From a virus: a stretch of DNA of 60,101 nucleotides. The position numbers were made by a program, and so were the translations under genes. Where the stretch lies: the IMG/VR virus record IMGVR_UViG_3300044970_000208, positions 1-60,101 of that record; one strand, written 5' to 3'. Shown here in pieces: positions 163 through 32,362 of this stretch. The first letter of the stretch is position 1. Every line of letters starts with the position of its first letter. A model generated the notes under the pieces. That model was not told the origin of the DNA, ran no database searches, and saw only the letters and a list, made by a program, of their open reading frames with translations.

Positions 163-1079
163 CAAAAGAAGAAAAACTAACAATCAGCTATAGTTGATGT
201 CTTCACAGTCGAAATTGCGTTAGAGGCTTTATAGACTTCATAGACTGTGTTTAGCGTTTGATGATTGTCTATAATTGTCTGTCATCACAGAGCAACATCA
301 ATTCATATCAACAACATCATCTATGCTCACTGCATTGCTATGTTGTCTATATAGCCCCTACCCCCTACACCCCATAGTTTTACTCCGATTGAAAATGTTG
401 TCAAGCGATATATTTGCATTTGTTGTTTTGTTGCAACATAGTTGTTGTAAAGACAACACTGTTGTAGATGGTACAACACTTTCACAGTCGATTTTCTGTA
501 GCGCCATAGCCTGTGTTGTCAGAAACGCTTTAATGGTCCTGTAGGGGGTTGTTGTAGGAGCAAGGTAGGGTGGTACTGACCCTGTGACGTTAATCGATTG
601 TAGGCATGCTACAGGCCGTGGGTGGGCTACATAGAATACGGATAGAGCGTTTTAGACGGTGGTGGTTAACAGGTTGAAAAAGACCCTTCCGTGGGCTTGG
701 CGGTATACAAATAGCGCCCCACCCCCTACTGGCCCACGCCCGTGCCGCACAGGGCTGCGCTGCGCTGGCGTGAATGCATAGGTATGCGCTGCTGCGCTGG
801 TGAAGAACACGCGACATATACGTTTCACCAGCCTGTAAAAATCTTCAATGAATTCAAAGACTTACACGCATATGAGAAACTGATTCAAAAACAGTTGCCT
901 GATTTAATTGGGGACAGATTAGTGCCTGTTTTTTAAGCAAATGAGAGACTATCGAATGGCGGTATACGATAGCGATTAACTATCAACCATACCCCCATCC
1001 AACGAAGTCCTGCATCACCTACGCATACAACGACAACCGACAAAGCCCCTACAATCGACAGGGTCTAATAGCCCCACAG

Positions 1080-1109
1080 TTGACAGGGCTTTTGCAAGGT
1101 CGCTACAAT
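1080..1109 (+). promoter_or_regulatory. Early promoter P1, sigma70-like
   Basis: TTGACA (1080-1085), 18-base spacer, TACAAT (1104-1109). Spacer and downstream sequence (TTGAAAGCATCGA) are shared with the promoters at 1783 and 2638, showing a duplicated promoter cassette. It drives the first small genes. Confidence 0.8.
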
Positions 1110-1139
1110 TGAAAGCATCGACGGCATCGGGTCGTCGTC

Positions 1140-1155
1140 TTACCGAAGGTAAACA
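1140..1155 (+). promoter_or_regulatory. RBS mini-hairpin 1 (TTACC-GAA-GGTAA)
   Basis: A 5-bp stem at 1140-1152 with loop GAA; the 3' arm carries the Shine-Dalgarno AAGG, three bases before the ATG at 1156. First of ten such elements, at 1140, 1326, 1529, 1843, 2943, 3163, 3383, 3844, 4032 and 4516. Confidence 0.7.
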
Positions 1156-1323
1156 ATGCAAACTACTGAAATCATCATCGCCTTGCAAAACGCAAAACTC
1201 TTCGAAGCAGCGAAGCTGCAATGTGGCAACGTTGACAATTTGTCGATGCTTGTTGCTGTAGCAACAGGAAAGGTGGCGGCATACAATGAATTGTATGATC
1301 TGTACCGTGAATTGATGGCCTAA
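1156..1323 (+). CDS. Small early protein, 55 aa, unknown
   Basis: First gene of the rightward arm, about 40 bases downstream of promoter P1. Reads MQTTEIIIALQNAKLFEAAK and ends in a helical, tyrosine-rich tail (YNELYDLYRELMA). No family recognised. The start is fixed by the GAAGG Shine-Dalgarno in an RBS mini-hairpin. The next gene begins 20 bases after its stop behind another such hairpin. Confidence 0.65.
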   Translation: MQTTEIIIALQNAKLFEAAKLQCGNVDNLSMLVAVATGKVAAYNELYDLYRELMA

Positions 1324-1325
1324 CA

Positions 1326-1343
1326 TTTCCGAAGGAAAACATC
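1326..1343 (+). promoter_or_regulatory. RBS mini-hairpin 2 (TTTCC-GAA-GGAAA)
   Basis: 5-bp stem with GAA loop at 1326-1338, followed by ACATC and the ATG at 1344. Relative to hairpin 1 one A-T pair is flipped to T-A, a compensatory change. Confidence 0.65.
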
Positions 1344-1535
1344 ATGCAAAACATCATTCTTCGCAGCGTCACCAAAGGTGACTATGTCAAACGGAAAGCA
1401 GACAGCAAAGCTGTTTACATCAAGGGCGACTACGACAGGACGACGAAGTCGTTTGAGTTGAAGGATGTCGAAGACATAAACCGCTGTGTTTACGTCAAGG
1501 CAGACAAAATCGTCGTTATCGGCTTCACTTACTGA
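1344..1535 (+). CDS. Small early protein, 63 aa, unknown
   Basis: MQNIILRSVTKGDYVKRKAD onward, with many alternating beta-type residues and charged turns, suggesting a small beta-barrel. No family recognised. Its TGA stop (1533-1535) lies inside the next RBS mini-hairpin (1529-1541), so a terminating ribosome would open the downstream Shine-Dalgarno. Confidence 0.7.
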   Translation: MQNIILRSVTKGDYVKRKADSKAVYIKGDYDRTTKSFELKDVEDINRCVYVKADKIVVIGFTY

Positions 1536-1546
1536 AAGTAAACATC

Positions 1547-1774
1547 ATGTTCATCATCATTTCCCTCACATCACTCGCCATTGCTTCCTACATGATGCAA
1601 AACGAAATTGCTTTGCAACTGAAGAAAACCTTCGGTTTTATGACAATCGGTCAAGGCTTCAAAAAGCGTCATTACACATTCACCTACAGCGAAGCTGCAC
1701 AATGGGCAGCATGCTATGATGCAGCGACTGTGTATAAGCGTGGCAACTTCGTTGCAGCAAAGCGTTTCAAATGA
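1547..1774 (+). CDS. Small early protein with N-terminal hydrophobic segment, 75 aa
   Basis: Starts MFIIISLTSLAIASYMMQNE, a probable membrane anchor or uncleaved signal, followed by a basic aromatic domain ending KRGNFVAAKRFK. Start chosen behind RBS mini-hairpin TTACT-GAA-AGTAA (1529-1541). Promoter P2 begins 8 bases after the stop. Function unknown; an early membrane-targeted host-takeover protein is possible. Confidence 0.65.
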   Translation: MFIIISLTSLAIASYMMQNEIALQLKKTFGFMTIGQGFKKRHYTFTYSEAAQWAACYDAATVYKRGNFVAAKRFK

Positions 1775-1782
1775 CCCCACAC

Positions 1783-1812
1783 TTGACAGGGGCTTTTGAA
1801 GGTCTGTATAAT
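1783..1812 (+). promoter_or_regulatory. Early promoter P2, sigma70-like
   Basis: TTGACA (1783-1788), 18-base spacer, perfect TATAAT (1807-1812). The spacer nearly matches P1. Downstream GACGGC-AATCCC-GCCGTC forms a 6-bp hairpin at the head of the transcript. Confidence 0.85.
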
Positions 1813-1842
1813 TGAAAGCATCGACGGCAATCCCGCCGTCAC

Positions 1843-1860
1843 TTACCGAAGGTAAACACC
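1843..1860 (+). promoter_or_regulatory. RBS mini-hairpin 4 (TTACC-GAA-GGTAA)
   Basis: Stem 1843-1847 with 1851-1855, GAA loop; AAGG lies in the 3' arm and the ATG follows at 1861. Confidence 0.65.
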
Positions 1861-2568
1861 ATGAAAAACGTACTCTCGATTTCCGCTGATGCAAAAACAG
1901 TCAAGGGCGAAACCCTTGGGTTTCTGACAGGTATTCTCTACCTTGCACCAGCCACAACAACCAAGTGGAACACTTGTTCAATGGCAAAAATTGCACAATG
2001 CGACAAAGCTTGTCTCTACAGTGCTGGTCGTGGAGCTTTTAGCTCTGTACAGCAAGCCCGTATTGCAAAAACTGTGCGCTTCTTCGAAGAGCGTGATAGT
2101 TTTATGGCTGACGTTGTTTTCTCGATCAAGTCGTTGATTCGCAAAGCCAGCAAAGCTGGATTGAAACCTTTGGTTCGCTTGAATGGTACATCTGACATTC
2201 GTTGGGAAACCGTAGGTTTGACAGTTGACGGTGTTGCTTATGCCAACATCTTCGATGTTTTCCCTGACGTTCAATTCTACGACTACACAAAAGACGCAAA
2301 CCGCAAGGCTTTGCCTTTGAACTATGATGTGACTTTTTCCTACAGTGGCGTTGAAGGCTTTAAGCCTTTTGTCAACAAGGCGATGGACAAGGGAATGCGT
2401 ATGGCTGTAGTGTTCCGTAGCGAAGCTACCATCCCTGCATCATTCAAGGGTATCCCGGTTGTGTCAGGTGACAAGTCTGACGTTCGTCACCTTGATGCAC
2501 AGGGTGTCGTGGTCGGTTTGTATGCCAAAGGCAAAGCCAAGAGCGATGCTACAGGCTTTGTAGTGTGA
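1861..2568 (+). CDS. Gp88/DUF7227-like conserved phage protein, 235 aa
   Basis: Single gene between promoters P2 and P3 with a terminator-like hairpin after it, so probably highly expressed early. The N-terminal part carries a cysteine cluster (NTCSMAKIAQCDKACLYSAG) and the signature SAGRGAFSSVQQARIAKT, which I recall from the Gp88/DUF7227 family found in environmental phages. The cysteines could bind metal or an Fe-S cluster. Biochemical role unknown. Start fixed by the RBS mini-hairpin at 1843. Family name is from memory and not checked by search. Confidence 0.7.
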   Translation: MKNVLSISADAKTVKGETLGFLTGILYLAPATTTKWNTCSMAKIAQCDKACLYSAGRGAFSSVQQARIAKTVRFFEERDSFMADVVFSIKSLIRKASKAGLKPLVRLNGTSDIRWETVGLTVDGVAYANIFDVFPDVQFYDYTKDANRKALPLNYDVTFSYSGVEGFKPFVNKAMDKGMRMAVVFRSEATIPASFKGIPVVSGDKSDVRHLDAQGVVVGLYAKGKAKSDATGFVV

Positions 2569-2574
2569 GACAAC

Positions 2575-2597
2575 GCTTCCCCTTCGGGGGAGGCTTT
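2575..2597 (+). terminator. Probable intrinsic terminator
   Basis: GCTTCCCC-TTCG-GGGGAGGC, an 8-bp stem (one G-U pair) with a UUCG tetraloop, followed by a short TTT. It sits 7 bases after the 235-aa gene and upstream of promoter P3. Confidence 0.6.
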
Positions 2598-2637
2598 GCA
2601 AAGTCCCTACAGCAAGCAAGGTTGAATAGCCTTGCAT

Positions 2638-2667
2638 TTGACAGGGGTTTTGCAAAGTCTGCATAAT
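2638..2667 (+). promoter_or_regulatory. Early promoter P3, sigma70-like
   Basis: TTGACA (2638-2643), 18-base spacer, CATAAT (2662-2667), then the same TTGAAAGCATCGA start region as P1 and P2. It heads the main early operon. Confidence 0.75.
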
Positions 2668-2673
2668 TGAAAG

Positions 2674-2942
2674 CATCGATGCATCGGCATCATTACAGCA
2701 ACTGTGTTGCTTTTGTTCTTTAAAAACCTAGTGTGGCGTCAGTATGGCGTCAACATGTAAAGCAAAGCATGTTGACACCTGAAATAGGCCAGCGTGATTG
2801 TAAGCACGTAACGTCTTACACTGCTCATAGCACATGAGGATGAAAATGTGCATAGGGACTACATCATGGCATCGGGGTCGGTGCTATATGATGTGGCTTT
2901 CATAAGCCTTGTGGCACAGGGTCACAGGGTTTATATCAAGCC
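2674..2942 (+). ncRNA. Structured untranslated leader with rrn-like boxB/boxA
   Basis: About 270 bases between promoter P3 and the first gene, with no plausible ORF. Hairpins: AGCAAC-TGT-GTTGCT (2697-2711), GTCAACATG/CATGTTGAC (2749-2776, 9 bp), TGTAAG/CTTACA (2799-2820), GCACAT/ATGTGC (2830-2851). Directly after the first hairpin lies TGTTCTTTAA (2714-2723), one base off the rRNA antitermination boxA TGCTCTTTAA, in the boxB-boxA order of rRNA leaders. An antitermination leader is inferred. Confidence 0.45.
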
Positions 2943-2962
2943 TTCCTGAAAGGAAACAAAAC
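2943..2962 (+). promoter_or_regulatory. RBS mini-hairpin 5 (TTCCT-GAA-AGGAA)
   Basis: Stem 2943-2947 with 2951-2955, GAA loop, ATG at 2963. Same 15-base core recurs at 3163 and 3383 and, shortened, at 3844 and 4032. Confidence 0.65.
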
Positions 2963-3169
2963 ATGCAGTGGAATCTTGAAAATCTCAATGTCACTGCTGT
3001 CTATCTTGACAGCATTCCAGTTGCTGGCATGGTGACATTGTCCCGTGTCAGATATGGTGGTGAAGTATCACATCACATCACTCTCACATCACCCATCACT
3101 GTGTATGGCACAGTGCGTGACAGCGTTATCGTTGATCACAAACACATTCAAACTATTTCTTCTTCCTGA
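2963..3169 (+). CDS. Small early protein, 68 aa, unknown
   Basis: MQWNLENLNVTAVYLDSIPV onward, beta-rich, ending VDHKHIQTISSS. Resembles short beta-barrel phage proteins but no family is recognised. An upstream in-frame ATG at 2909 is rejected because the strong AAGGA site fits 2963. Its stop (3167-3169) is embedded in the next RBS mini-hairpin. Confidence 0.65.
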   Translation: MQWNLENLNVTAVYLDSIPVAGMVTLSRVRYGGEVSHHITLTSPITVYGTVRDSVIVDHKHIQTISSS

Positions 3170-3180
3170 AAGGAAACAAA

Positions 3181-3390
3181 ATGTATACAACACGACGATC
3201 TGGTTTTGACCGTGAAGATGCCCGTCTGCATTATGCTCAGTTGCAAAGCCGCAAAGCAAAGCTTCAACATCACCTCTTCGCTCTTCAGGAAGCAAGAACT
3301 GAGGCGTACAACATGGGTGAATGGGACAGGGTTGACCGTATCCAGTTGGCTATCGATGACACATCCGATGAACTGAAAAAGCTTTCCTGA
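3181..3390 (+). CDS. Small coiled-coil early protein, 69 aa
   Basis: Highly charged and helical: an N-terminal basic stretch (MYTTRRSGFDREDARLHYAQ), then long heptad-like segments with many Gln, Lys, Glu and Leu ending DTSDELKKLS. Probably an oligomerising helical-hairpin protein. Start set by mini-hairpin 3163-3175; stop TGA (3388-3390) lies in the next mini-hairpin. Confidence 0.7.
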   Translation: MYTTRRSGFDREDARLHYAQLQSRKAKLQHHLFALQEARTEAYNMGEWDRVDRIQLAIDDTSDELKKLS

Positions 3391-3402
3391 AAGGAAACAC
3401 AC
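3383..3402 (+). promoter_or_regulatory. RBS mini-hairpin 7, 6-bp stem (TTTCCT-GAA-AGGAAA)
   Basis: The longest of the series: stem 3383-3388 with 3392-3397. The TGA of the upstream gene occupies 3388-3390, at the loop, so termination and re-initiation are tied to opening the hairpin. ATG at 3403. Confidence 0.7.
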
Positions 3403-3789
3403 ATGAAAGTATTCGTCTATTTCAATCTGCATCGCAAATGCTTCAGCATCAAGGCACTGGAAGGCCCGAAGAAGGGCCGTGTCATTGCCCATCGTGACGA
3501 TGTGTTGCTCTTCGATGGCACATTCAAGGTGTCCGAAGCTGGTCGTCAGCGTGTCCTTCGTGAACGTAAAAAGAATGTGCATGCTGGTGTTGTCGGTCAT
3601 TGGGATGAGACAGGCACTGACCTGATAAGCATTGACCGTGTCACCACCATTGGTAGGCCCGTCACCTACAACCCATACAAATACAACACCTTTGTATACT
3701 TGTACGGTGAGCATCCTGTCGGTGGTTGTCGTCTTGTGGCACTGACTGTCAACGAAAACAAACGATCTCACATCAACGTCTGGAATTGA
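3403..3789 (+). CDS. Conserved phage protein, 128 aa, unknown
   Basis: MKVFVYFNLHRKCFSIKALE onward; central basic segment GRQRVLRERKKNVHAGVVGH and a C-terminal aromatic stretch YNPYKYNTFVY. This layout recurs in many tailed phages of proteobacteria to my knowledge, always without known function. Start set by RBS mini-hairpin 7. A 9-bp hairpin follows the stop. Confidence 0.75.
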   Translation: MKVFVYFNLHRKCFSIKALEGPKKGRVIAHRDDVLLFDGTFKVSEAGRQRVLRERKKNVHAGVVGHWDETGTDLISIDRVTTIGRPVTYNPYKYNTFVYLYGEHPVGGCRLVALTVNENKRSHINVWN

Positions 3790-3825
3790 CAGCGCTTTGT
3801 AATGCTATTGTATCAGTAGCATTAC
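3786..3825 (+). promoter_or_regulatory. TTGACA box followed by a 9-bp hairpin
   Basis: TTGACA at 3786-3791 overlaps the stop of the upstream gene. No good -10 box is present; TATCAG at 3811 is the best. The hairpin GTAATGCTA/TAGCATTAC (3799-3807, 3817-3825) lies where the -10 would be and has no T tract, so an operator, attenuator or processing site is as likely as a promoter. Confidence 0.35.
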
Positions 3826-3860
3826 TGACTCACTGTCGAGTCGTCCTGAAAGGAAACATC

Positions 3861-4037
3861 ATGCGTTTAATCACCAAGAAAAACGGCATCGAAATATGGG
3901 CACAGTTTGACCAGTCTGCACAGGTCTATGAGTTGTTCTTCGACAACGAAGGGCAGACATACACTGGATGGGCTGTTGATTCCATCAAAGATGCACTGGC
4001 TGCATCGACTTACATCATCCAAGAACAACTGTCCTGA
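3861..4037 (+). CDS. Small early protein, 58 aa, unknown
   Basis: Reads MRLITKKNGIEIWAQFDQSA then beta-type residues YELFFDNEGQTYTGWAVDSI and a C-terminal helix. Small alpha-beta fold; family not recognised. The start at 3861 follows the TCCT-GAA-AGGA mini-hairpin (3844-3854). Stop TGA (4035-4037) sits in the next one. Confidence 0.65.
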   Translation: MRLITKKNGIEIWAQFDQSAQVYELFFDNEGQTYTGWAVDSIKDALAASTYIIQEQLS

Positions 4038-4048
4038 AAGGAAACATT

Positions 4049-4429
4049 ATGGGCCTCGATATGTATGCATTCACAGTGGATGCGAAAGATGTTGGTGACG
4101 CTGTCACTGATGTGGCACTGGGTGACAATGCTGTAGAGCTATTCTACTGGCGTAAGTTCAATGCTTTGCATGGTTGGATGGAAAACTTGTATCGCCTCAA
4201 AAAAGGCTTGCGAGTAAGCTTCAATTGCACTACAGTGAGATTGACCAGCGAAGACCTTGACCGACTAGAGATGGACACAGGTAATAACAAGCTTGTACCC
4301 ATCAATGGGTTCTTCTTCGGTGAGCAAACGATATATCCCGAAGACCTCGAAAGCGTTGCAACATTCGTTGCTAAAGCAAGAGAGGCACTGGCTGAGGGCA
4401 AGGCTGTGTATTACGACTCATGGTGGTGA
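4049..4429 (+). CDS. Conserved phage protein, 126 aa (MGLDMYA family)
   Basis: Begins MGLDMYAFTVDA and contains FYWRKFNALHGWMENLY, a signature of a widespread phage protein often mislabelled phosphoglycerate kinase. Ends KAVYYDSWW. No kinase motif is visible and the activity is unknown. Last gene behind an exact TCCTGAAAGGAAACA module (4032-4046). About 100 non-coding bases with two weak hairpins (GTAGC-TAAC-GCTAC; GTAACA.../...TGTTAC) follow. Confidence 0.75.
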   Translation: MGLDMYAFTVDAKDVGDAVTDVALGDNAVELFYWRKFNALHGWMENLYRLKKGLRVSFNCTTVRLTSEDLDRLEMDTGNNKLVPINGFFFGEQTIYPEDLESVATFVAKAREALAEGKAVYYDSWW

Positions 4430-4515
4430 TCGCCTTCGGCTCACGTAGCTAACGCTACAGCACCCCGTAACAGCCTTCACTGAGGGTTGTTACTGATGCG
4501 CTGTTGCATCGACAC

Positions 4516-4531
4516 TTCCGTAGGAAAACAC
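4516..4531 (+). promoter_or_regulatory. RBS mini-hairpin 10 (TTCC-GTA-GGAA)
   Basis: 4-bp stem 4516-4519 with 4523-4526; loop GTA replaces GAA. It precedes the ATG at 4532. No later gene carries the module. Confidence 0.55.
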
Positions 4532-4798
4532 ATGAAAATCGCAGACTTCATCGCCCAAAGCAAGGGCAAGTTCATCACCATCAACTTCATTAAGAAAGAT
4601 GGCACTGTCCGTAAACTGAATGGTCGCATTGGTGTTACCAAGTATCTCAAGAACGGCACAGCCACTGTCGATCTTGACAAATACCTGATCGTCTATGACA
4701 CCCTCAATGCTGGCTATCGTAGCGTCAACAAAGACACCATCGTGTCGGTGACATGTGAAGGCTTGACCATCAACAACAACGCAATGGTGACAGCATGA
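4532..4798 (+). CDS. WYL_2/Sm-like SH3-fold protein, 88 aa
   Basis: MKIADFIAQSKGKFITINFI, then KKDGTVRKLNGRIGVTKYLK and a short beta domain. The KKDGTxRxLNGR pattern matches my memory of small Sm-like/WYL_2 SH3 beta-barrel proteins of phages, thought to bind nucleic acid or act as regulators. Start behind mini-hairpin 10. It overlaps the next gene by ATGA at 4795-4798. Confidence 0.7.
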   Translation: MKIADFIAQSKGKFITINFIKKDGTVRKLNGRIGVTKYLKNGTATVDLDKYLIVYDTLNAGYRSVNKDTIVSVTCEGLTINNNAMVTA

Positions 4799-5022
4799 AA
4801 ACATACGCTGTAACAATTGTACGATCTAGCTATGTTGACATCACAGTTGATGCCAACAACAAAGATGAAGCCGAAGCACTGGCTTGGTCACAACAAGACC
4901 GTATGCAGTATGAGTGGAACCCCTCTGATGAATGGGAGACACTCAGAGTTGATGAAATTAAAACACTCGGTGAGCTTGAAGCTGAAAGCACCGATGGTTT
5001 CCGCAACCCTGAAAGAGATTGA
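4795..5022 (+). CDS. Small acidic protein, 75 aa, unknown
   Basis: MKTYAVTIVRSSYVDITVDA, then a helix-rich acidic domain (NNKDEAEALAWSQQD) typical of small phage proteins with a beta-beta-alpha core. Start ATG overlaps the previous stop, indicating coupling. No function assigned. Confidence 0.7.
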   Translation: MKTYAVTIVRSSYVDITVDANNKDEAEALAWSQQDRMQYEWNPSDEWETLRVDEIKTLGELEAESTDGFRNPERD

Positions 5023-5023
5023 C

Positions 5024-5296
5024 ATGAGCAAAACATTCACCATCACCGTCTATTCAGACCCCGGTCATGCATGGGGCAAGGTCAAGCGTGATGTGCTGGT
5101 CAACCTCGGCATTGCCGACAAGATTAGCCGCTACAGCTACCAGCGTGGCGACTATGCCTACCTTGAAGAAGACTGTGACCTGACCACGCTGTGCATGGCA
5201 CTGAACGAACGAGATACCCGTGTCAAGTTTGTTGAGAAGCGCAGCGAACGTGACAGCAAAATCAGGTCTTACGAAAGGTATGAATATGGCTTCTAA
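5024..5296 (+). CDS. Conserved phage protein, 90 aa (SDPGHAWGKV)
   Basis: Starts MSKTFTITVYSDPGHAWGKV and continues KRDVLVNLGIADKISRYSYQ, with basic and acidic clusters and a tyrosine-rich end. The SDPGHAW motif recurs in many unrelated phage genomes as far as I recall; function unknown. Start preceded by GAAAGAGAT. Its 3' end overlaps the 34-aa gene. Confidence 0.7.
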   Translation: MSKTFTITVYSDPGHAWGKVKRDVLVNLGIADKISRYSYQRGDYAYLEEDCDLTTLCMALNERDTRVKFVEKRSERDSKIRSYERYEYGF

Positions 5297-5390
5297 TGTG
5301 TGGCCGTTTCCGGCATTTCCTAACCCACTCGACACAGGCCGGAAACAACCTGTGTTTAACCCCAACAACCATGAGGATGCACCTTTGTGA
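5286..5390 (+). CDS. Short proline-rich protein, 34 aa
   Basis: MASNVWPFPAFPNPLDTGRK then QPVFNPNNHEDAPL. RBS GAAAGG lies 7 bases before the ATG inside the previous gene. The stop overlaps the GTG start of the wall hydrolase (GTGA), so it may chiefly serve to couple translation. No homologue recognised. Confidence 0.5.
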   Translation: MASNVWPFPAFPNPLDTGRKQPVFNPNNHEDAPL

Positions 5391-5857
5391 GCGTAGCGAA
5401 ACACATCCCCATCGCTGTATTCTGTGGCGCTTTGTTGCTCTCGACAGCATCATGTGAGCATCAACCAGTACCCACCGTGGCACAGGCTAATGAGTTCTGT
5501 TGCATGCTGAAGAACATCTACCACGAAGCACGAGGGGAGGGTGTTGAAGGTATGCAAGCTGTGGCACTGGTCACATTGAACAGGGCTAAGCAGCAAGGCA
5601 AGACAGTCTGCGAAGTTGTATACCAACGTAAGCAATTCTCTTGGGCAAACACTGCGAAGGGTCGTAACAAACCCCTCACAGGCAACATAGATGTTGCATA
5701 CAACGTGGCGTCAGCCGCAATGAGCGACAAGCTCATTGATATCACCTTTGGTGCCACCCACTACCACACTAAGCAGGTCAAACCTGTGTGGCGTAAGGCA
5801 CTGGACAAGGTTGTTGTTATAAACAATCACATTTTTTATAAAGGAAAAACCCAATGA
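5387..5857 (+). CDS. SleB-type cell wall hydrolase with lipoprotein-like signal, 156 aa
   Basis: Hydrolase_2 (SleB/CwlJ-like) domain over residues 37-150: YHEARGEG with the expected catalytic Glu47, LNRAKQQGKTVCEVVYQRKQFSW, and GATHYHT near the end. This family cleaves peptidoglycan glycan strands. The N terminus is a signal peptide (IAVFCGALLLSTASC) with a lipobox-like TAS-C at Cys23, suggesting an exported, perhaps lipid-anchored enzyme. It starts at GTG overlapping the previous stop and overlaps the next gene by ATGA. Placement in the early arm is odd, because a separate M15 endolysin lies in the late arm. It could act in wall remodelling, exclusion or lysis timing. Confidence 0.85.
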   Translation: MSVAKHIPIAVFCGALLLSTASCEHQPVPTVAQANEFCCMLKNIYHEARGEGVEGMQAVALVTLNRAKQQGKTVCEVVYQRKQFSWANTAKGRNKPLTGNIDVAYNVASAAMSDKLIDITFGATHYHTKQVKPVWRKALDKVVVINNHIFYKGKTQ

Positions 5858-6069
5858 CTATTCGTGACGATGACACCCCTGAGAAGGCAACACGTAGCCG
5901 AGGCCGTCCCTCATTCGCTGAGAAGGCAGAGCCTACCCTGCGTGACACCTTCTCGCTGGAGGTGATGAAGGGTGTGCTTGCCTCTGGTGTGACAGTGGAA
6001 GACCCGCTTGCACTGAGTAGGTATTGCTACAAGATTGCTGATGCACTGGTGAAGGTCAGAGATGAATAG
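5854..6069 (+). CDS. Small protein, 71 aa, unknown
   Basis: Basic disordered N terminus (TRSRGRPSFAEK) and helical C-terminal half (TFSLEVMKGVLASGVTVEDP). ATGA overlap with the wall hydrolase; its 3' end overlaps the next gene by 8 bases. No family recognised. Confidence 0.65.
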   Translation: MTIRDDDTPEKATRSRGRPSFAEKAEPTLRDTFSLEVMKGVLASGVTVEDPLALSRYCYKIADALVKVRDE

Positions 6070-6244
6070 TACTAACATAGCCTACACTGTAGGTAGGCTG
6101 CATGGGTTACGTAACATGCCTGCCTATCCACTCTTCCCCGAAGGTACTTGGGAAGCTATGCAATACAGACAAGGCTACATCGATGGTGCTGTGGCTCTGG
6201 AAGATGACATACTTAAGGAAAAGACATGGACAACGAAACAGTGA
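6062..6244 (+). CDS. Small RMF-like protein, 60 aa
   Basis: Contains a short helix pair with YRQGYIDGAVALEDDI, reminiscent of the GYxxG patch of ribosome modulation factor-like phage proteins, but too weak to assign. Overlaps both neighbours. Confidence 0.55.
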   Translation: MNSTNIAYTVGRLHGLRNMPAYPLFPEGTWEAMQYRQGYIDGAVALEDDILKEKTWTTKQ

Positions 6245-6381
6245 CAATATCCAAGAAAGAATACGAAGACTTACTCGACTCACAACTTTGGCTCGATTGT
6301 TTGGAGTCAGCGGGTGTAGATAATTGGGGTGGGTATGACGAGGCTATCAAAGAATATCGAGGTGCTAAAGATGCTGAGTGA
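6226..6381 (+). CDS. Small acidic protein, 51 aa
   Basis: MDNETVTISKKEYEDLLDSQ, then LWLDCLESAGVDNWGGYDEA. The TISKKEYEDLLDSQLWLDCL pattern is common in short phage proteins (helical, with a C-terminal WxGxDxA motif). RBS AAGGAAAAG 5' of the ATG. Function unknown. Confidence 0.7.
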   Translation: MDNETVTISKKEYEDLLDSQLWLDCLESAGVDNWGGYDEAIKEYRGAKDAE

Positions 6382-6610
6382 AATTGACATTCAAGACTTC
6401 GACGTGCTGCCAGTGCGTGAGTTGTACAAGGTGAAGCCACGTAGCTACATCAAGCTGCCGTGGATGGACGGTACAGGCATTGACGAGGTGGTGTTCTTTG
6501 ACCACATCGATGGTATGTACAGCTACTGTGTGAACATGAACAACGAAGTGATACATCTGCAAGCATGGGCAGAGGTTGCACCGCTTGTGAAGAAAGCAAA
6601 GCCCGACTAA
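6371..6610 (+). CDS. Small protein, 79 aa, unknown
   Basis: MLSEIDIQDFDVLPVRELYK onward, a beta-rich domain with IDEVVFFDHIDGMYSYCVN, then a helix. The ATG at 6371, with GAGG upstream and overlapping the previous stop region, is preferred over 6329. Ends just before the promoter at 6637. Confidence 0.65.
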   Translation: MLSEIDIQDFDVLPVRELYKVKPRSYIKLPWMDGTGIDEVVFFDHIDGMYSYCVNMNNEVIHLQAWAEVAPLVKKAKPD

Positions 6611-6636
6611 TTTGTAGGGTTTTCTGGATGGTTTAT

Positions 6637-6666
6637 TTGACAAGCCATCTGGAAAGCCTTTACACT
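6637..6666 (+). promoter_or_regulatory. Sigma70-like promoter for the DUF932 operon
   Basis: TTGACA (6637-6642), 18-base spacer, TACACT (6661-6666), 49 bases before the ATG at 6715. An imperfect dyad (GGATGG/CCATCT) spans the -35 and may be an operator. Confidence 0.65.
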
Positions 6667-6714
6667 GAAGGCCCAACTCGGCAATCATGCCACAACCTAG
6701 CAAGGAAACACATC

Positions 6715-7554
6715 ATGGCAAATCACGTCATCTTCTCCCGCAACATCGACAACTCTGCTCTGACACTTGAGCAGATTCAACACCGTGCTCCTGCTGCGTT
6801 CAGCACCACCAAGTCTGAGCGTTTGAGTGACCGTTATGTATCGCTCAATACCAGTGATGTGCTGCCCATCATGGCAGACTATGGCTACCTTCCAACACAG
6901 GCTGCACAAAAGCGTAGCCGTAAGGCCAGCACCGAGCATGCTGCCCACATGTTGGCATTCAGTCGTACCACTGACATCGTTGAAGCTGGTGACATTCGTC
7001 CCGAGATCATCTTGTACAACTCTCACGATGGCACAGGCTCAGTGAAGCTGTTTGCTGGTGCATTCCGTTTCATCTGTAGCAATGGCATCGTGGCAGGTGA
7101 TGGCTTTCAATCCCGCATCTACCACAGCAAAGCATTGACAGGCTTTGAAGAGATGTTGCGTAACACAGTGGCTACATTGCCTGATCTGATGGGCCGCATT
7201 GACAGGATGCGTGGTGTGTCGTTGTCTGTTGGTCAAGTACATGACATGGCAATTGCTGGTGTTGCTACCCGTTGGGACGACTACACAGGTCAACCCCGTG
7301 GTGCTTACGCTGTGTCACAGACAGTCAAGGATGTGATGAATGTTCGCCGTTATGGTGACGAAGGCTACGATGCATGGACTGTGTTCAACCGCATTCAGGA
7401 AGGTGTGATTCGTGGCAATGCGATGATTCGCTCCATCACTGAGACACATCCCGAAGGTGTGATGCGTAAGGCTCGACCAGTCAACTCCATCAAGGAAGCT
7501 GTGCGTATCAACACAGAACTGTGGAATATTGCTGACGAATTCGTTACTGCGTAA
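6715..7554 (+). CDS. DUF932-family protein, 279 aa
   Basis: MANHVIFSRNIDNSALTLEQ, then SERLSDRYVSLNTSDVLPIM, GTGSVKLFAGAFRFICSNGI and LSVGQVHDMAIAGVATRW. This is the usual architecture of DUF932, a domain common on phages and plasmids, often near replication or conjugation functions, with no established activity. Length fits the family. Start at ATG 6715 behind AAGGAAACACATC. It has its own promoter, so it may be needed at a higher level than its neighbours. Confidence 0.8.
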   Translation: MANHVIFSRNIDNSALTLEQIQHRAPAAFSTTKSERLSDRYVSLNTSDVLPIMADYGYLPTQAAQKRSRKASTEHAAHMLAFSRTTDIVEAGDIRPEIILYNSHDGTGSVKLFAGAFRFICSNGIVAGDGFQSRIYHSKALTGFEEMLRNTVATLPDLMGRIDRMRGVSLSVGQVHDMAIAGVATRWDDYTGQPRGAYAVSQTVKDVMNVRRYGDEGYDAWTVFNRIQEGVIRGNAMIRSITETHPEGVMRKARPVNSIKEAVRINTELWNIADEFVTA

Positions 7555-7652
7555 CGTCAATGGCCTTAACCGCTATGGGGATGCCACTGCGTGGCAGCAA
7601 TCGGTGACAGCATGGAGAGACATGCAACAACACAACAACATAGGAAATGTTA

Positions 7653-8474
7653 ATGAATCAAAACAACGCTATCGGTATGTTCATGGGTCTGTTCATCGGT
7701 GATGCACTCGGTGCGCCATTGGAATTCACTGAGCCTAACACTGGCTCCCCACTCAAGGACATGGTCGGTGGTGGTGTTCATGAGACAGCACCGGGAGAGT
7801 GGACAGACGATGGTGCTATGGCAATGGCTATTGCTGATGCCTACCTCAGCTACAAACGCTTTGCTCCCGGCATCATTGCACAGAACTTCAAACAGTGGAG
7901 AAACAATGGAACTTTCGGTACTCGATCTTATTGTTTTGATATTGGAACTACTACTGCTGAAGCGCTGAGTGCATCGTCCAACAAGCGTCCCTATGGTGGC
8001 TCTTGTGCCCTCATGACAGACGGTAACGGTGCGATCATGCGACTGGCTCCACACATACTGTTCAACCACAACAACAAGACGATGGCGATTGCTGAGTCTG
8101 TTGCTGGTGGCTTGCTCACTCACGGTACAGGTAAGTGTGTTGCCTATAGTGCTGCACTGGCTGAAGAGTTGTTCGATGGGTCTGCACCAAACAAAACCCT
8201 GTACGACAAAGGCATCAAGGAAGAGAGTGGCACAGTGATGGGCTGCTATGCATCGGCATGGCAGTCTGTTGCAGCTACATCGTCCTTTGAAGACGCTCTC
8301 ATCCACGCTGTCAACAAAGGTGGTGACGCTGATACTGTTGGTGCTGTGACAGGTATGATTGCTGGTCGCATCTATGGCTACGATGCCATCCCTCAACGAT
8401 GGATTGATGCACTGGTTGACCACGACAAGTTGTTGGCGACAGCAACTATGCTTTACAACATGGGTGATGTATGA
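7653..8474 (+). CDS. ADP-ribosylglycohydrolase, 273 aa
   Basis: ADP-ribosylglycohydrolase (DraG/ARH) fold: GLFIGDALGAPLEF at the N terminus, the metal-binding WTDDGAMAMAIADA (Thr51, Asp52, Asp53), and the C-terminal GGDADTVGAVTGMIAGRIYG (Asp225, Asp227, Thr228). All five expected metal ligands are present, so it should be active. Such enzymes remove ADP-ribose from proteins or small molecules, and in a phage could reverse host ADP-ribosylation defence or recycle NAD products. Start ATG 7653 chosen for its AGGAA spacing over ATG 7647. Confidence 0.9.
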   Translation: MNQNNAIGMFMGLFIGDALGAPLEFTEPNTGSPLKDMVGGGVHETAPGEWTDDGAMAMAIADAYLSYKRFAPGIIAQNFKQWRNNGTFGTRSYCFDIGTTTAEALSASSNKRPYGGSCALMTDGNGAIMRLAPHILFNHNNKTMAIAESVAGGLLTHGTGKCVAYSAALAEELFDGSAPNKTLYDKGIKEESGTVMGCYASAWQSVAATSSFEDALIHAVNKGGDADTVGAVTGMIAGRIYGYDAIPQRWIDALVDHDKLLATATMLYNMGDV

Positions 8475-19500: not shown

Positions 19501-19873
19501 AGAACGCAATGGTGGTGAATGGACAGAGGCACGATTCAGAAGTTTCGTGACCTCTGCCTTACGTGCAGCGTCAAGGCGTTGGCCTCCTAAGTACAAGGCT
19601 TTGAAGGAAGCTTTCGTGGGTAGGAAGGTGAATGCTAAGACGGGTAAGCAGGCAATGCATTACCAGTGCGCTGAGTGCTCTAAACATTTCGTAGCAACAG
19701 ACGTTCAAGTTGATCACATCCATCCTGTTGTAGACCCTAAGAAGGGCTTCACTACATGGGACAACTTCATTGAACGTATGTTCTGTGAGATAAAGAATCT
19801 TCAGGTGCTATGTAAGCCTTGCCATAAAATCAAAACTGATCAAGAGAAACTTGAAAGGAAAAAGAAAGTATGA
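19490..19873 (+). CDS. HNH endonuclease, 127 aa
   Basis: Classical HNH with zinc knuckles: CAECSKHF (CxxC), VDHIHPVV (catalytic His), NFIERMFCEIKNLQVLCKPCHK (second CxxC). The basic N terminus (RSFVTSALRAASRRW) probably binds DNA. In this phage type such HNH proteins sit in replication modules and may cut host DNA, process replication forks or aid packaging. No ATG is available: GTG 19490 or TTG 19475. Confidence 0.8.
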   Translation: MTVKERNGGEWTEARFRSFVTSALRAASRRWPPKYKALKEAFVGRKVNAKTGKQAMHYQCAECSKHFVATDVQVDHIHPVVDPKKGFTTWDNFIERMFCEIKNLQVLCKPCHKIKTDQEKLERKKKV

Positions 19874-20760
19874 GCTTCCTAAAATATCAACACCTTGAAC
19901 GCTACGGTAACACCGAAGTGGAAGGCATTGAAGTGGGTACATGCTATGTCTTCCCTAAGCTGGACGGTACTAACGGTAGTGTCTGGTATGAGGACGGCAC
20001 ACTGCGATGCGGTAGTCGCAACCGTGAGCTTGCACCAAACAACGACAATGCTGGTTTCATGAACGCCATGATGGACAATGTGTCCGTGTTAACGTATGTA
20101 ATGGCGAACAACGAACATATACTGTACGGTGAATGGCTTGTGCCGCATACACTGAAGACCTACAACGACGATGCATGGCGCAAGTTCTATGTGTTCGATG
20201 TGTTTGATCGCAAGAAAGAACGACTGCTTAGCTATGACGAATACTCTGAGGGCTTGGTTGCTGCTGGTATCAACGTCATTGCCCCTATTGCCATCATCAA
20301 GAACGGTAGCATCGACCACTTTACTGAGTGTCTTAGCAAGGCACACTACTTGGTGAAGGATGGTGAAGGTAGTGGTGAAGGTGTTGTCATCAAGAACTAC
20401 GACTACAAGAACAAGTATGGTCGTCAGACTTGGGCTAAGATTGTCACCAACGAATTCAAAGCCAAGCATCACATTGCAATGGGTGCGCCTGTTGTTGGTT
20501 GTGAAATCGTTGAAGAGAAGATTGCTGCTAAGTATGTGACGCAAGCTTTGGTTGACAAGGTGGAAGCAAAGATTGTCAACGAGATGGGTGGATGGTCATC
20601 GAAATATATCCCTCGACTGATCAACACTGTGTGGTACGATGTAGTCACTGAAGAGACTTGGAACTTTGTCAAAGAGTTTAAGAATCCGAAGGTGGACTTC
20701 AAGGTGTTGTCGCATTACGTGACAGCGAAGATTAAAGAACTGAAAAAGGAACTGTTCTAA
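19870..20760 (+). CDS. Rnl2-like RNA ligase, 296 aa
   Basis: Nucleotidyltransferase ligase: motif I KLDGTNG with adenylation site Lys30, motif III ILYGEWL, FYVFDVFD, motif IV SGEGVVIKNY and motif V with RQTWAKIV. Motif spacing and length suit the T4 Rnl2/RnlB-type RNA ligase family more than DNA ligases, since no OB domain signature is clear. A repair role against host tRNA or rRNA cleavage is likely. ATGA overlap with the HNH gene; ATG of the next gene overlaps its stop. Confidence 0.85.
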   Translation: MSFLKYQHLERYGNTEVEGIEVGTCYVFPKLDGTNGSVWYEDGTLRCGSRNRELAPNNDNAGFMNAMMDNVSVLTYVMANNEHILYGEWLVPHTLKTYNDDAWRKFYVFDVFDRKKERLLSYDEYSEGLVAAGINVIAPIAIIKNGSIDHFTECLSKAHYLVKDGEGSGEGVVIKNYDYKNKYGRQTWAKIVTNEFKAKHHIAMGAPVVGCEIVEEKIAAKYVTQALVDKVEAKIVNEMGGWSSKYIPRLINTVWYDVVTEETWNFVKEFKNPKVDFKVLSHYVTAKIKELKKELF

Positions 20761-26965: not shown

Positions 26966-29900
26966 TCACCGACGACTTGCTAGACCACCCTTTGCCAGCT
27001 TTGGTACAAACTTTCTCACCTCATCCAATGGCTTAGTTCGTTTAGCTTCATCAGTGGCTTTAGAAATTGCAGGCTCAGTCTGCTGAAACTTCTTCAGTTT
27101 GTCTGTAAGTTCATACAGGTTCTGTGCTTTCTGCTTGGCCCCGCCAGCATCTAAGATGTCAGCAACCTCACGCATCTGTCGTTGAATACCTGAATAGTCT
27201 GCAAAGTTGTTAATTGCAGCTTGGTATTGCTGACCAAGACCGGACTTTGTAGACGTTGCTGTAGCCATATCCAGATAGCTGTTCATCAAATCTTTGATAC
27301 CAGTGTATGACATGTATGCAAGCTTCATCTTTTCTTTAGGGTCTGGAGTGGTACGAGCAAGCTTCATATACTCAGCCACAACTTCTTCTTCACCCTTCAT
27401 CGTTGCCCTACTCAGACCTTTACCACCAGTCTCCAGCACCCGAGCAACATCCTTCTCACCACTACGCAACTTAGCATCTCTACCTTTGACACGAAGCTTC
27501 TCAGCTTCCAACATCATGTCTTCTGTTTCTAAGAAACCAGCACGAGGTAGACCAATCGGACGAACAACACCGGGTGCGCCAGTGACAGCGCGAAGGATTG
27601 TGTTCATGTCTTTCCTGTCATACTTCTCAGGAGCCATGTTGATTTTGTTGAACACATAATCAGCGTATGGAATCTCGGTGACAACATAGTTCTGTGGTTT
27701 TGTTCCACCAAACGGTGTACCTCTAAATCCAAGATTTAAGTCTTTAGTGAACGAAGGAGCACCCACCATCATTTCAGAATGGAAGAACTCATCACGCTTA
27801 GATGGGTCCGTAAAGCCTGACTTCTTCAACGTGTCCACGTCTTCAGTAACACCTTGACCGTGGAACAACTTAACAGGTGGCACATCCTTATACTTCTCAC
27901 GCAGTGTTTCAAGACGTTTCTGATATTGACCAGCCATCTTCATAACATCGGCAAGCATAGAGGGGTCTTTAGGATTGAGTTCAACACCACGAGAATATCG
28001 ATAGTCACCCAACACCACACCCAACACATCGTCATCTATTGACGAAAACTTATCGTTGTTACGGAGCTTAAAAAAGCTGTCTTCGCGTGTCTCTTTGATG
28101 GCAGCAACAGCTTTGTTACGCGCAACAACACTGACATTACCAGTGATGCTATTAACATCACCAGACAAATACTTAGGATCAACACCGTATTCATCAGCAA
28201 CCGGTTCAGCCTTTCTAACCACAGCCTTACCACCAACACTGACAGGATTACCGTCCATGTCATATTCAACTTCATCCACCAAAGACTCAGCAGACTCATC
28301 AGCCTTCTTAGCAAATGGCTGTGGTGGCATCTCAGAGAACTTCAACCCTTTAGCCTGACCAGTGAAGCTATGTAGAGTGTTGGCATAGTCTTCAGGGTTA
28401 GCTACCTTCCAACTCTTCAACTGAGCAGGTGTGTACAGGTCAAGCATCGCCTCTTCACCCATGATGTAGTCTTCGTCAGCAAAGGCTTTAGAAGGCGCAG
28501 GAGCCTCTATCGCCTGTGCTGGTGGGGTAGGCATGGCTTGTTCTGTTGGTGCTGCTGTAGGGGCTGTGATAGCCTTTGGTGCAGCTTTAGCAGAAGGTGT
28601 GATAGCCTTTGGTGCAGCTTTAGCAGAAGGTGTGATAGCCTTTGGTGCAGCTTTGGTTGGTGCAGGCTTCTTAGTCAGCATGTTTGCCATCTGATCCATC
28701 ACAGGTGACGGAGCTTCGACAGGTGCGCCAGCATCTTTCCTAACTTGTTGCAACAAATTCATTGTTTCATCAAGCAATGTAGACTTACCAGTCTTCTTCA
28801 ATGCTTCTTTGGCAACAACACCACCAGCAGCAAAACCGGGTTTGTCATCCTGTACAGCCAATGGTGCTCTCTGTACAGTTTTAGCCAACTGCAAAGCAAT
28901 ACCAAACTTACGGAAGTCTGTGTCCTCAGTTAAACTTCTACCAAGTTGTTGTTTATACAAATCAGTTGTAGCCTTACGAACCTTTGGAGGCAAAGCTTCA
29001 AACTTCTTCTGTTCAATTGGAGGAACTTGTTCACGACTATAGTAGTCCTGAATAGATTCCAGTGTTGCAATGTTCTTGGCTTGTGTCTGAAGTTGTGAAA
29101 GTCGATTCTTCAACTCACCAAACTGACCTTCTCTTGAAGCGTTCTTATATTCATCGCTGCGAAGATAGGGCAACAACATAGCTTCAATGTTTTCTGCCAT
29201 GAATTTACGAGCTTGAGAGTCAACAGTTTTATCACCAGTGGTTCTGAAGACAGACTGGTAAGGAATATTAAGACGTTCAATCTCAGTTTCGATTTCATTC
29301 TTTGGAGGAACCAAAGCCAAACCTGTCATCTGCTTGAATGGACCTGTGTCGCGTGGTGCAGCCTTTTCTCGTGTTGCTGGTTGGTACTCAGGCAACGCTT
29401 GCTTCAAGATGGGAATACCCTTCTGAATAGAGCGACCAATAATCTCACCAGCACCAAGCTTTTCACCGGGCTGAGTGACAAAGATGTCACGCTGCATTGC
29501 CTCGTCCCTGTCGAATGCGCTGATCAAATCACTGAATTGATTCAATGGGACAGTGGCGCGACCAAGCCATGCACCGATAAACTCAGCACCAGACTTGCTC
29601 ATCTTATTCAAAGCAGCTTCATCGGATTCATCGCCTGTGAAGTTGGCAGAAATAGACGATGCGGCTTCACGAGCCACATCAACCATCTGACCTTGTGTAC
29701 CTACAGCTTTGAAACCAGTCAGTGCTTCAACCAAGTCTTTGGTCTTGAAGTCTTCAGGATTACCGTTGATTGTTTTGTAATAGAAGTCTGCAAGCGCAAG
29801 AGGAACGTTCAAGGGAAACAAAAACTTAGCGTCAACGGTTGTGCCGTCATCGCTCTTCATAATGTTCCAAGGAGTGTCTTGGTTTTCTTCACGATATTTG

Positions 29901-32362
29901 TACGCAGCAATGAGTGTTGCAGCACCTGTGGCTTGCTGTGCAATACGAGTTGAACCCTGCATCAACAAAGCCTGCCCTGCCTCGTCACCATTACGAAGCA
30001 TGCTGACACCTCTAATCATGTCTGCTGCACCCATACCTGCGGTAAGGCCGGGGTTGTAATGTTTCCATGTCCACTTAGTGGCGTTGACAAGGAATCGTGC
30101 AAAAGGAAATACCACAGTGCTTACAGGTCGAGCAGCTTCAACGCCTTTAACAAACGCCAGTCCCAATCCTTCTGTGGGTGTCTTGCTGAATGTGAATTCA
30201 AGAGCATCGTCAACACCTTTACGCAAGATGTCGATGGGGATATTCTTACCCTGCGCCATTGTGTCCAGCATATCCAAACCAACTTGTCGCATGTGATAGT
30301 CAATCGACGAAGCAAACACAGCACGACGAATGTAGTTGTCCATCAACACAGCAGGTGTATTCAAGATACGCACAGGAGCAATCAAGTCAGTCTGCTTCAT
30401 CTCTTCAGCAGTCGCCAACATCTTGCTCATCAGCATTGGGTTGTTCTTCAGAGCTTCTTCAGTGATGTCCTTAGACAATTCTTGTTGACCGAGATAGAAC
30501 CATGTATCGACTGTGTCATCGATAGCGCCATGTATACCGCGACCAATGTCACCCTTAACAGGACTACCACGCATTTCACCAGCAAGCTTACGACCAGTGT
30601 TGAACAGCAAAGATTCAAGACCTTCTTCAACAGCACCGTATGTAGAGTTGACACCAACACCAAATGCGTTACGCATCACCGTAGCCATGTTGGTTGTCAT
30701 GGCTGTAATCATGTTGCGGTCAGCACGATCAATGTAACCTTTCAATGTTGCCAGTGCGCCAGTTGAGGGGTCTGGTTTACCCAACAAAGCGTCAACAGCT
30801 TTGGCTGATTCAGGGTCAACCTCTCGCATCTTATTGATCATGCGGCTGATGACAGACTTGCTTTGCAGAGTACGAGCAGCGTCACTGGTAGATACACCAT
30901 ACATTGCAGAAAACTTCTCAAGAGCGTCAGTGTCTAAGCCACCAGCTTCAAGACGTGTCAGGAAGTTTGGTAGGTCTGTGCCTGCATCCTCAAGCGATTG
31001 AGTAATGACGTTGTCAGGAAGACTGTCAAAGCTTTGCAGAGTACGTTGAACTGCTTCAAAGGTTTGCTCACCCGGTTTAGGTGACATGTCAGGAATCTGT
31101 TTCCAGATAGAAGCAGCAATCAAATCAGCTTGTTTGTCTAACGAGTTCTTCACCTGCATCTGTGCGATGGCAGTGGGAGCGCCTTGTTCATCAAGCAAGT
31201 CACCACCATCATAAATGTTAGTGGTTGTTACAGCTACGTTGTCTGCGTCCTTGTCACCAGTTAAAGTGTCAGGTTTCTTAGCGATGTCGAGTTGCTTCTT
31301 ACGAGCATCAAGAATCTCATTGAGAGTGAAGTCATTACCTTTGAGAAACTTGGTAGAGCCTTTAGCAGCCAGTGCTAATGGTCCCACTTCAACAGCCAAA
31401 CTCAGAGGCGCAGTGATTGCACCAGTCAATGCAGCTTCACCAATATCAATACCTTCAGCAACTTGCTTTTCAATCTGTTCAATCTGTGGCAGCACTTGTT
31501 GTTGTTGCTCTTCAGACAACTGAGGTAACAAAGTCCTCATCTCTTTAGCAGCAGCATCAGCAACAGACAACTCACGCTTCTGTCCATACACGTTGGACAA
31601 GACGTTGGTGGAGGTTTCTGTAGCCAGTGGAGCGCCAACACCGACAGCGCCTGTCTTAGACAACACAGCCTTCTTCAATCCTTCCTGTGTTGCTTTACGC
31701 ATCAAAGGACCAGTGACAACTTTACCAACACCGAGACTAGCCACCGTTGACGGAGCGCTAACAACACCAGCCATGTAGTCTGACACAGCCCTTAATGGGT
31801 TCTGACCACCCTTACTCAAGAAGCCAGCAGTCTTATCAAACAAAGCATAAGCTTCACCAGCCTTCAACACATCTGCTGGTTTGGAATTGTTGATCCAGTC
31901 TTGCTCAGTGAAGTAGTTGATTTCGTTGGTGTTGATGAATCGCATGTGACGAGCGAAACGATCAACATAAGCTGACGCAGATTCACCCGGTTTAGGTTGA
32001 CCAGTCTTACCGAAACGCAATGAAGCGTAGTCCTGAATCTTCTTCAAGTTCTCGGGATTGGTGTACAGTTGTTCAAACGGAATAGTTTCTGTCTTAGCAG
32101 CAGTCTTATCTGCTTCACGCTTTGTTTGCTGACGAGCCAGTGCAGCCTGAGAAGCCTCAAGAACATTGAAGCCTTGAGGCTGTGCAGGAGCAGGTGTTGG
32201 CGCAGCCTGTACAGTTGGTGCTTCCTGTTGAATAGGTTGTGAAGGTGGAATGGTCTGTGTGGGTTTAGGCAGCTTCTTCAAAGCCTCTGCCATTTGTTCC
32301 TTTGACATTCCGTCAGGAAACTCAACAGGACCAACACCAATAATGTCAACGATCTGAGCCAT
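26966..32362 (-). CDS. Giant internal virion/ejection protein, 1798 aa
   Basis: Largest gene and last of the leftward arm. N-terminal Pro/Gln-rich region, hydrophobic alanine-rich segments (about 190-340), a helical core with MTTNMATVMRNAFGVGVNST and FVKGVEAARPVSTVVFPFAR, a Pro/Ala linker with three AAPKAITPSAK-like repeats (33-bp DNA repeats at 28566-28655), and a C-terminal domain from about 1490 with LFHGQGVTEDVDTLKKSGFT...GAPSFTKDLNLGFRGTPFGG. This last part loosely resembles ADP-ribosyltransferases. Ends LAKGGLASRR. Size, position and composition suit a DNA-ejection protein carried in the capsid. Confidence 0.75.
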   Translation of the reverse strand: MAQIVDIIGVGPVEFPDGMSKEQMAEALKKLPKPTQTIPPSQPIQQEAPTVQAAPTPAPAQPQGFNVLEASQAALARQQTKREADKTAAKTETIPFEQLYTNPENLKKIQDYASLRFGKTGQPKPGESASAYVDRFARHMRFINTNEINYFTEQDWINNSKPADVLKAGEAYALFDKTAGFLSKGGQNPLRAVSDYMAGVVSAPSTVASLGVGKVVTGPLMRKATQEGLKKAVLSKTGAVGVGAPLATETSTNVLSNVYGQKRELSVADAAAKEMRTLLPQLSEEQQQQVLPQIEQIEKQVAEGIDIGEAALTGAITAPLSLAVEVGPLALAAKGSTKFLKGNDFTLNEILDARKKQLDIAKKPDTLTGDKDADNVAVTTTNIYDGGDLLDEQGAPTAIAQMQVKNSLDKQADLIAASIWKQIPDMSPKPGEQTFEAVQRTLQSFDSLPDNVITQSLEDAGTDLPNFLTRLEAGGLDTDALEKFSAMYGVSTSDAARTLQSKSVISRMINKMREVDPESAKAVDALLGKPDPSTGALATLKGYIDRADRNMITAMTTNMATVMRNAFGVGVNSTYGAVEEGLESLLFNTGRKLAGEMRGSPVKGDIGRGIHGAIDDTVDTWFYLGQQELSKDITEEALKNNPMLMSKMLATAEEMKQTDLIAPVRILNTPAVLMDNYIRRAVFASSIDYHMRQVGLDMLDTMAQGKNIPIDILRKGVDDALEFTFSKTPTEGLGLAFVKGVEAARPVSTVVFPFARFLVNATKWTWKHYNPGLTAGMGAADMIRGVSMLRNGDEAGQALLMQGSTRIAQQATGAATLIAAYKYREENQDTPWNIMKSDDGTTVDAKFLFPLNVPLALADFYYKTINGNPEDFKTKDLVEALTGFKAVGTQGQMVDVAREAASSISANFTGDESDEAALNKMSKSGAEFIGAWLGRATVPLNQFSDLISAFDRDEAMQRDIFVTQPGEKLGAGEIIGRSIQKGIPILKQALPEYQPATREKAAPRDTGPFKQMTGLALVPPKNEIETEIERLNIPYQSVFRTTGDKTVDSQARKFMAENIEAMLLPYLRSDEYKNASREGQFGELKNRLSQLQTQAKNIATLESIQDYYSREQVPPIEQKKFEALPPKVRKATTDLYKQQLGRSLTEDTDFRKFGIALQLAKTVQRAPLAVQDDKPGFAAGGVVAKEALKKTGKSTLLDETMNLLQQVRKDAGAPVEAPSPVMDQMANMLTKKPAPTKAAPKAITPSAKAAPKAITPSAKAAPKAITAPTAAPTEQAMPTPPAQAIEAPAPSKAFADEDYIMGEEAMLDLYTPAQLKSWKVANPEDYANTLHSFTGQAKGLKFSEMPPQPFAKKADESAESLVDEVEYDMDGNPVSVGGKAVVRKAEPVADEYGVDPKYLSGDVNSITGNVSVVARNKAVAAIKETREDSFFKLRNNDKFSSIDDDVLGVVLGDYRYSRGVELNPKDPSMLADVMKMAGQYQKRLETLREKYKDVPPVKLFHGQGVTEDVDTLKKSGFTDPSKRDEFFHSEMMVGAPSFTKDLNLGFRGTPFGGTKPQNYVVTEIPYADYVFNKINMAPEKYDRKDMNTILRAVTGAPGVVRPIGLPRAGFLETEDMMLEAEKLRVKGRDAKLRSGEKDVARVLETGGKGLSRATMKGEEEVVAEYMKLARTTPDPKEKMKLAYMSYTGIKDLMNSYLDMATATSTKSGLGQQYQAAINNFADYSGIQRQMREVADILDAGGAKQKAQNLYELTDKLKKFQQTEPAISKATDEAKRTKPLDEVRKFVPKLAKGGLASRR
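28566..28655. repeat. 33-bp tandem repeat, 2.7 copies
   Basis: Units begin at 28566, 28599 and 28632 (GTGATAGCCTTTGGTGCAGC...). The first two are nearly exact. They encode an Ala-Pro-Lys linker in the giant virion protein. Confidence 0.9.

Follow-up and report, generated by a model that had tools for sequence, protein, structure and literature searches.

Ribosome-binding sites in bacteria usually avoid structure. In the phage group described here nearly all early ribosome-binding sites lie in a hairpin, and the motif continues through the coding sequence, where it costs amino-acid changes. What are these hairpins, and what maintains them? The locus that raises the question belongs to a 60,101-nucleotide stretch of viral DNA (IMG/VR record IMGVR_UViG_3300044970_000208, positions 1 to 60,101), called the window below; its early features are given on the plus strand.

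A first-pass annotation had described ten mini-hairpins over the Shine-Dalgarno (SD) sequences of successive early genes, and all ten are present where it placed them. They are TTACC-GAA-GGTAA ahead of ORF 1156 (1140..1152), TTTCC-GAA-GGAAA ahead of ORF 1344 (1326..1338), TTACT-GAA-AGTAA (1529..1541), TTACC-GAA-GGTAA again ahead of a GP88-family gene (1843..1855), TTCCT-GAA-AGGAA ahead of ORF 2963 (2943..2955) and once more at 3163..3175, TTTCCT-GAA-AGGAAA (3383..3397), TCCT-GAA-AGGA at both 3844..3854 and 4032..4042, and TTCC-GTA-GGAA (4516..4526), the last of the field. The loop is GAA in nine of them and GTA in one, and the 3' arm contains the SD at every site, both as reported. Five or six perfect pairs form at seven sites and four pairs at 3844, 4032 and 4516. 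The stems of the window do covary (TTACC/GGTAA, TTTCC/GGAAA, TTACT/AGTAA, TTCCT/AGGAA), and relatives add ATACC/GGTAT and TCACC/GGTGA. The hairpins at 1529, 3163, 3383 and 4032 contain the upstream gene's stop codon, at 1533, 3167, 3388 and 4035, respectively (ORF ends 1535, 3169, 3390 and 4037). The predicted stability of the SD hairpins at 37 C ranges from -0.2 to -3.3 kcal/mol.

The SD hairpins are part of a field of hairpins that extends from the first early promoter to the last SD hairpin (1080..4526), as delimited by triloop density. We scanned for all perfect hairpins, sorted by loop size. Between 1080 and about 2.6 kb there are 20 perfect triloop hairpins with stems of at least 5 pairs, most of them within ORFs. 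Dinucleotide shuffles of 1000-2600 give 1.95 +- 1.47 such hairpins against the 20 observed there, and the highest count in any of 200 shuffles is 9; the density is 12.5 per kb in this interval versus about 1 per kb downstream of 8 kb. For hairpins with GAA or TTC loops and at least 4 pairs, the observed and expected numbers are 15 and 0.28 in 1000-2600, and 5 and 0.31 in 2600-4600, where the GAA-loop hairpins are the SD hairpins. None occurs in 4600-8000 and the numbers are at chance level beyond, which agrees with the earlier statement that the element is absent after 4.53 kb.

The hairpins within ORFs include GCAGC-GAA-GCTGC (1207..1219), GTCACC-AAA-GGTGAC (1368..1382; -6.8 kcal/mol as RNA), three at 1402, 1440 and 1465 with loops AAA, GAA and GAA (1402..1477), AAAACC-TTC-GGTTTT (1625..1639) and GCAAC-TTC-GTTGC (1743..1755), among others, and their loops are TTC, AAA, TTT and GTA besides GAA. 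The GP88-family gene (1861..2568; profile matches to PF17338 and phrog_1617) has ten in all, namely those at 1962, 2002, 2033, 2147, 2207, 2245, 2305, 2354 and 2417 with at least 5 pairs, and one at 1902 with a loop of 5, which is outside the strict count. An intergenic hairpin with a UUCG-type loop, TCCCC-TTCG-GGGGA, is found at 2578..2591. Among words of 3-5 bases, none is wholly sequestered in the stems. As the triloop hairpins are equally striking within ORFs, the element is not SD-specific, and the SD hairpins are best read as a special case, the regular non-coding part of the wider field. The first-pass annotation had proposed a repeated control element of the immediate-early block; its repetition, covariation and confinement hold, but a role mainly as an SD or termination-reinitiation element is not supported, since the ORFs and 5' leaders contain the same hairpins.

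In the window the left edge of the field coincides with the first early promoter, as it does in the two relatives inspected there. The block has three sigma70-like promoters, TTGACA-18-TACAAT (1080..1109; 11 of 12 consensus matches), TTGACA-18-TATAAT (1783..1812; 12 of 12) and TTGACA-18-CATAAT (2638..2667; 11 of 12). Leader hairpins are seen directly past the second promoter (GACGGC-AATCCC-GCCGTC, 1823..1840) and at 2697..2711 (AGCAAC-TGT-GTTGCT). The promoter and leader modules at 1080, 1783 and 2638 are near-identical within 1.6 kb, each with a TTGACA-18-TATAAT-like promoter and then TGAAAGCATCGA, and each relative repeats its own version of the module in its early block. In two relatives, L170 (G003) and L204 (G019), several DnaA-box-like TTATCCACA adjoin the first early promoter to the left of the hairpin field, suggesting a replication origin beside this promoter.

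Using the GP88-family gene as the query, we found 80 viral loci. Thirty-seven of them, near-copies of the window included, have 4-12 triloop hairpins within the 700-base ORF, compared with about 0.7 expected. Others of comparable protein identity, for example L016, L017, L021, L033 and L035 (71-73%), show 0-2 triloops and no SD hairpin. Loop sizes of 2-6 bases are enriched in the relatives, most strongly 3 and 4. The enrichment peaks within the initial 500 bases of the GP88 gene and is near background about 4 kb downstream; the field is about 4 kb long and covers the immediate-early block only, with one such local field per genome in the full-length relatives. We surveyed translation starts anchored on an SD and a start codon alone, pairing not being a criterion, and counted consecutive pairs from a 3-4-base loop. 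At least 4 pairs are present at 138 of 158 unique early starts of the relatives (87%), at 3 of 31 later-region starts and at 0 of 9 same-place starts in non-group loci. Hence the relatives do not keep AAGGA while losing the 5' arm, the pattern that the annotation had named as speaking against the element.

The field-bearing genomes form one syntenic phage group with a gene order resembling that of HMO-2011. The group sample consists mostly of metagenomic contigs from one collection, and 32 of its 34 members on the terminase tree reach the threshold of 8 triloop hairpins per 1.5 kb, two of them narrowly (8 and 9), while MW202701 (7) and L269 (3) are below it. The trait seems to be old within the group and to have been lost since, and the two apparent losses may have swapped their early block. 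MW202701 has a GP88 gene 63% identical to that of the window and SDs without a hairpin; a CTACAG-type short-repeat array (CTACAGCACTACAGCGCTACAG) lies upstream of this gene (L214 7510-7645). HMO-2011 itself has 7 triloop hairpins of at least 5 pairs in its first kb (L303 1-1000) versus 1.24 per kb overall, a mild and unconfirmed excess, and their loop sequences differ from those of the window group. No clear hairpin field is seen in other phages with a related GP88 or DNA polymerase, and a search of bacterial genomes with the GP88 gene for the host gave no close locus. Going by its named relatives and by what is generally known of these samples, the group is probably mostly freshwater.

Three other genes of the window were noted. 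A gene of the ADP-ribosylglycohydrolase family (7650-8474; PF03747, E 5e-50) possibly removes ADP-ribose modifications. An RNA ligase family gene (19870-20757; PF09414) is of note in view of the unusual early RNA of this phage, and among the full relatives compared it has a match only in G014. A protein of 1798 aa encoded on the minus strand (26966-32362) has no Pfam or PHROG match, and its identity to the relatives is low in most genomes.

Evolution preserves the pairing even where the protein must change. Compensating changes keep the stems paired inside coding sequence: ACC-TTA-GGT, GCC-ATA-GGC and TCC-ATA-GGA are found at column 54, and GGC/GCC alternates with GGT/ACC at column 502. As the control we took hairpins that these sequences form by chance, with loops of 8-15. 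When sequences are aligned pairwise, changes in a single arm are two to three times rarer than in the control, with the weakest effect in the closest pairs, and at 78-85% identity we counted 276 compensated doubles versus 201 singles, compared with 157 versus 385 in the control; because sequence pairs are non-independent and a mild enrichment is seen for the control loops as well, we quote ratios and not p-values. The difference from hairpin-free homologs is nonsynonymous in 0.44 of stem codons versus 0.29 outside, and the synonymous difference within the clade is 0.23 for stem codons versus 0.33 outside. At one hairpin, where most homologs without hairpins have WENVPF, many clade members encode WETVGF. 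Extending a stem is favoured until 6 pairs are reached; past this length, extension is at background level. The hairpins are non-random, conserved, covarying and limited in size; they occur in the early block alone and come at a cost to the protein encoded there.

The acting molecule is quite probably the early mRNA and not the DNA, a reading that several sequence signals favour and do not prove. The start of the field at the first early promoter and the presence of hairpins in the leaders count towards RNA. Among 7-pair stems with one interior mismatch, G.U outnumbers A.C by 61 to 26, compared with 117 to 97 in the control (p = 0.014), and by 36 to 11 among 7-pair triloops alone (p = 0.006). 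The plus strand of the early block folds 2.15 kcal/mol below its shuffles, versus 0.73 later and 0.14 in non-group loci, and its windows exceed shuffles in folding slightly more than the complement does. A larger mixed set of loci, possibly with misoriented ones, was kept out of these strand claims. The triloop preferences are strand-symmetric (GAA.097, TTC.106) and G.U is not preferred in stems of 5-6 pairs, both of which are also expected of DNA. The SD stems, at their predicted stabilities, may not be strong enough to accommodate a G.U pair; all of them would be stabler in cooler water. A strand bias of GNRA tetraloops was suggestive in a first table and is not significant when these are counted as a class. 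We had also considered G.U pairs in 5-6-pair stems as a pure RNA signature and rejected this, the preference being absent.

We speculate that the hairpins armour the early mRNA, i.e. that a dense row of minimal hairpins has been selected to shield the first messages, and we put the probability of this reading at about 0.42. The immediate-early transcripts would fold into a row of hairpins with 5-6 Watson-Crick pairs and 3-4-base loops, spread across the leaders, every SD and the ORFs, and this row would protect the first phage messages, whose survival may decide the infection, against endonucleolytic attack, possibly by host RNase E/G or by a toxin- or defence-type RNase. The SDs would be held weakly closed and still be openable by ribosomes, and translational gating may be a by-product. 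Since 16% of the early bases are inside such stems, the shielding would be partial. Our second choice, which we consider unlikely, is an RNA-binding factor of phage or host that recognises the copies by shape and controls the early messages through them, in the way of a multi-copy operator (by shut-off, antitermination or recruitment). Such a reader would suit the fixed geometry of 5-6 pairs and a loop of 3-4 across stabilities from -0.2 to -6.8 kcal/mol, which points to shape over stability, and preferences for loop and closing pair do exist; but several loop sequences are tolerated, the stem sequence is free, no candidate was found, and the early proteins have few or no family matches.

The remaining explanations appear less probable. 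The hairpins could be a mutational by-product with little function, template switching having perfected quasi-palindromes where the DNA is highly transcribed or close to an origin, by described mechanisms (PMC8794818, PMC3820800). The restriction of the excess to perfect stems, the transcription of the field and the DnaA-box-like sequences at its left edge in two relatives are in line with this improbable origin. However, template switching predicts no length cap, and the stems are capped near 6 pairs; it also predicts one-arm conversion, whereas gains and losses of hairpins do not gather in one arm, the one-arm share of three-change cases being 0.24 and 0.15 compared with 0.41 and 0.24 in the control. 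Neither the lack of excess in single-mismatch decay products nor the systematic covering of SD positions is expected from it. Translational control alone, with the SD hairpin enforcing termination-reinitiation or gating the initiation of successive early genes, is quite improbable too, although SD hairpins occur at 87% of the SD-anchored early starts and four of the ten in the window contain a stop codon. The other six contain none, the predicted stability is low, and hairpins also stand ahead of genes that open an operon, which no ribosome reaches from upstream. The ORFs and leaders are full of hairpins, and neither termination-reinitiation nor SD gating can account for those within ORFs. We consider it very unlikely that hairpins or cruciforms act in the DNA of the early region, e.g. 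as extruded sites for a polymerase or nuclease in the manner of the N4 early promoters. The N4 promoter hairpins have a comparable triloop geometry (PMC4496689) and the loop preferences are strand-symmetric, but no match to a virion RNA polymerase is found in the largest window proteins, the block is under near-consensus sigma70 promoters, and the SD placement together with the G.U preference in 7-pair stems indicates RNA.

If early messages are indeed shielded, this points to a so far unrecognised pressure on these phages during the first minutes of an infection; should a protein recognise the hairpin shape, the field is a new multi-copy RNA control element. We tentatively propose a new information layer in the first-expressed genes, in which shape-defined mini-hairpins would be read by a factor or resist host RNA-targeting defence and would reshape the proteins that they overlap.

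We could not match the trait to any system described in the open-access literature or Rfam. None of 4227 Rfam covariance models matched 900-5000 at E up to 1, and a description of such a hairpin field was not found in the open-access literature, the scope of our search, which leaves subscription papers outside. The closest start-associated repeat is the SAS/ESAS of cluster K mycobacteriophages, an SD-containing repeat at the starts of many non-structural genes, sometimes with an upstream stop, whose function is likewise not known (PMC3203893). The SAS is a fixed, non-palindromic 13-base sequence, GGGATAGGAGCCC, confined to translation starts, whereas the window group has covarying free stems, e.g. 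TTCCT-GAA-AGGAA, that are dense inside ORFs too. Early SDs are also central to the T4 RegB system, where they are RNase targets and secondary structure protects such sites (PMC3014915). RegB cuts unpaired GGAG, whereas the SDs of the window group are paired and the ORFs are involved too; no RegB-like protein was found among the early genes searched.

The N4 promoter hairpins have a short stem with a C:G closing pair and a 3-base loop (5'G, 3'A), and they extrude at physiological supercoiling (PMC4496689). They resemble the present ones in the short stem, the G-N-A-type triloop and the early location. N4 has three promoters with conserved stem and loop bases and a giant polymerase, while the window group has dozens of covarying hairpins of free sequence and sigma70-type promoters; the largest window proteins have no Pfam or PHROG match to a virion-encapsidated giant RNA polymerase, a search that remote homologs might escape. 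Viral coding mRNAs with selected RNA structure (PMC6563262) share with the window group the selection for pairing within coding sequence. The window group differs from them in being dsDNA phages, in the restriction to the early block and in the single narrow hairpin geometry, which includes the SDs.
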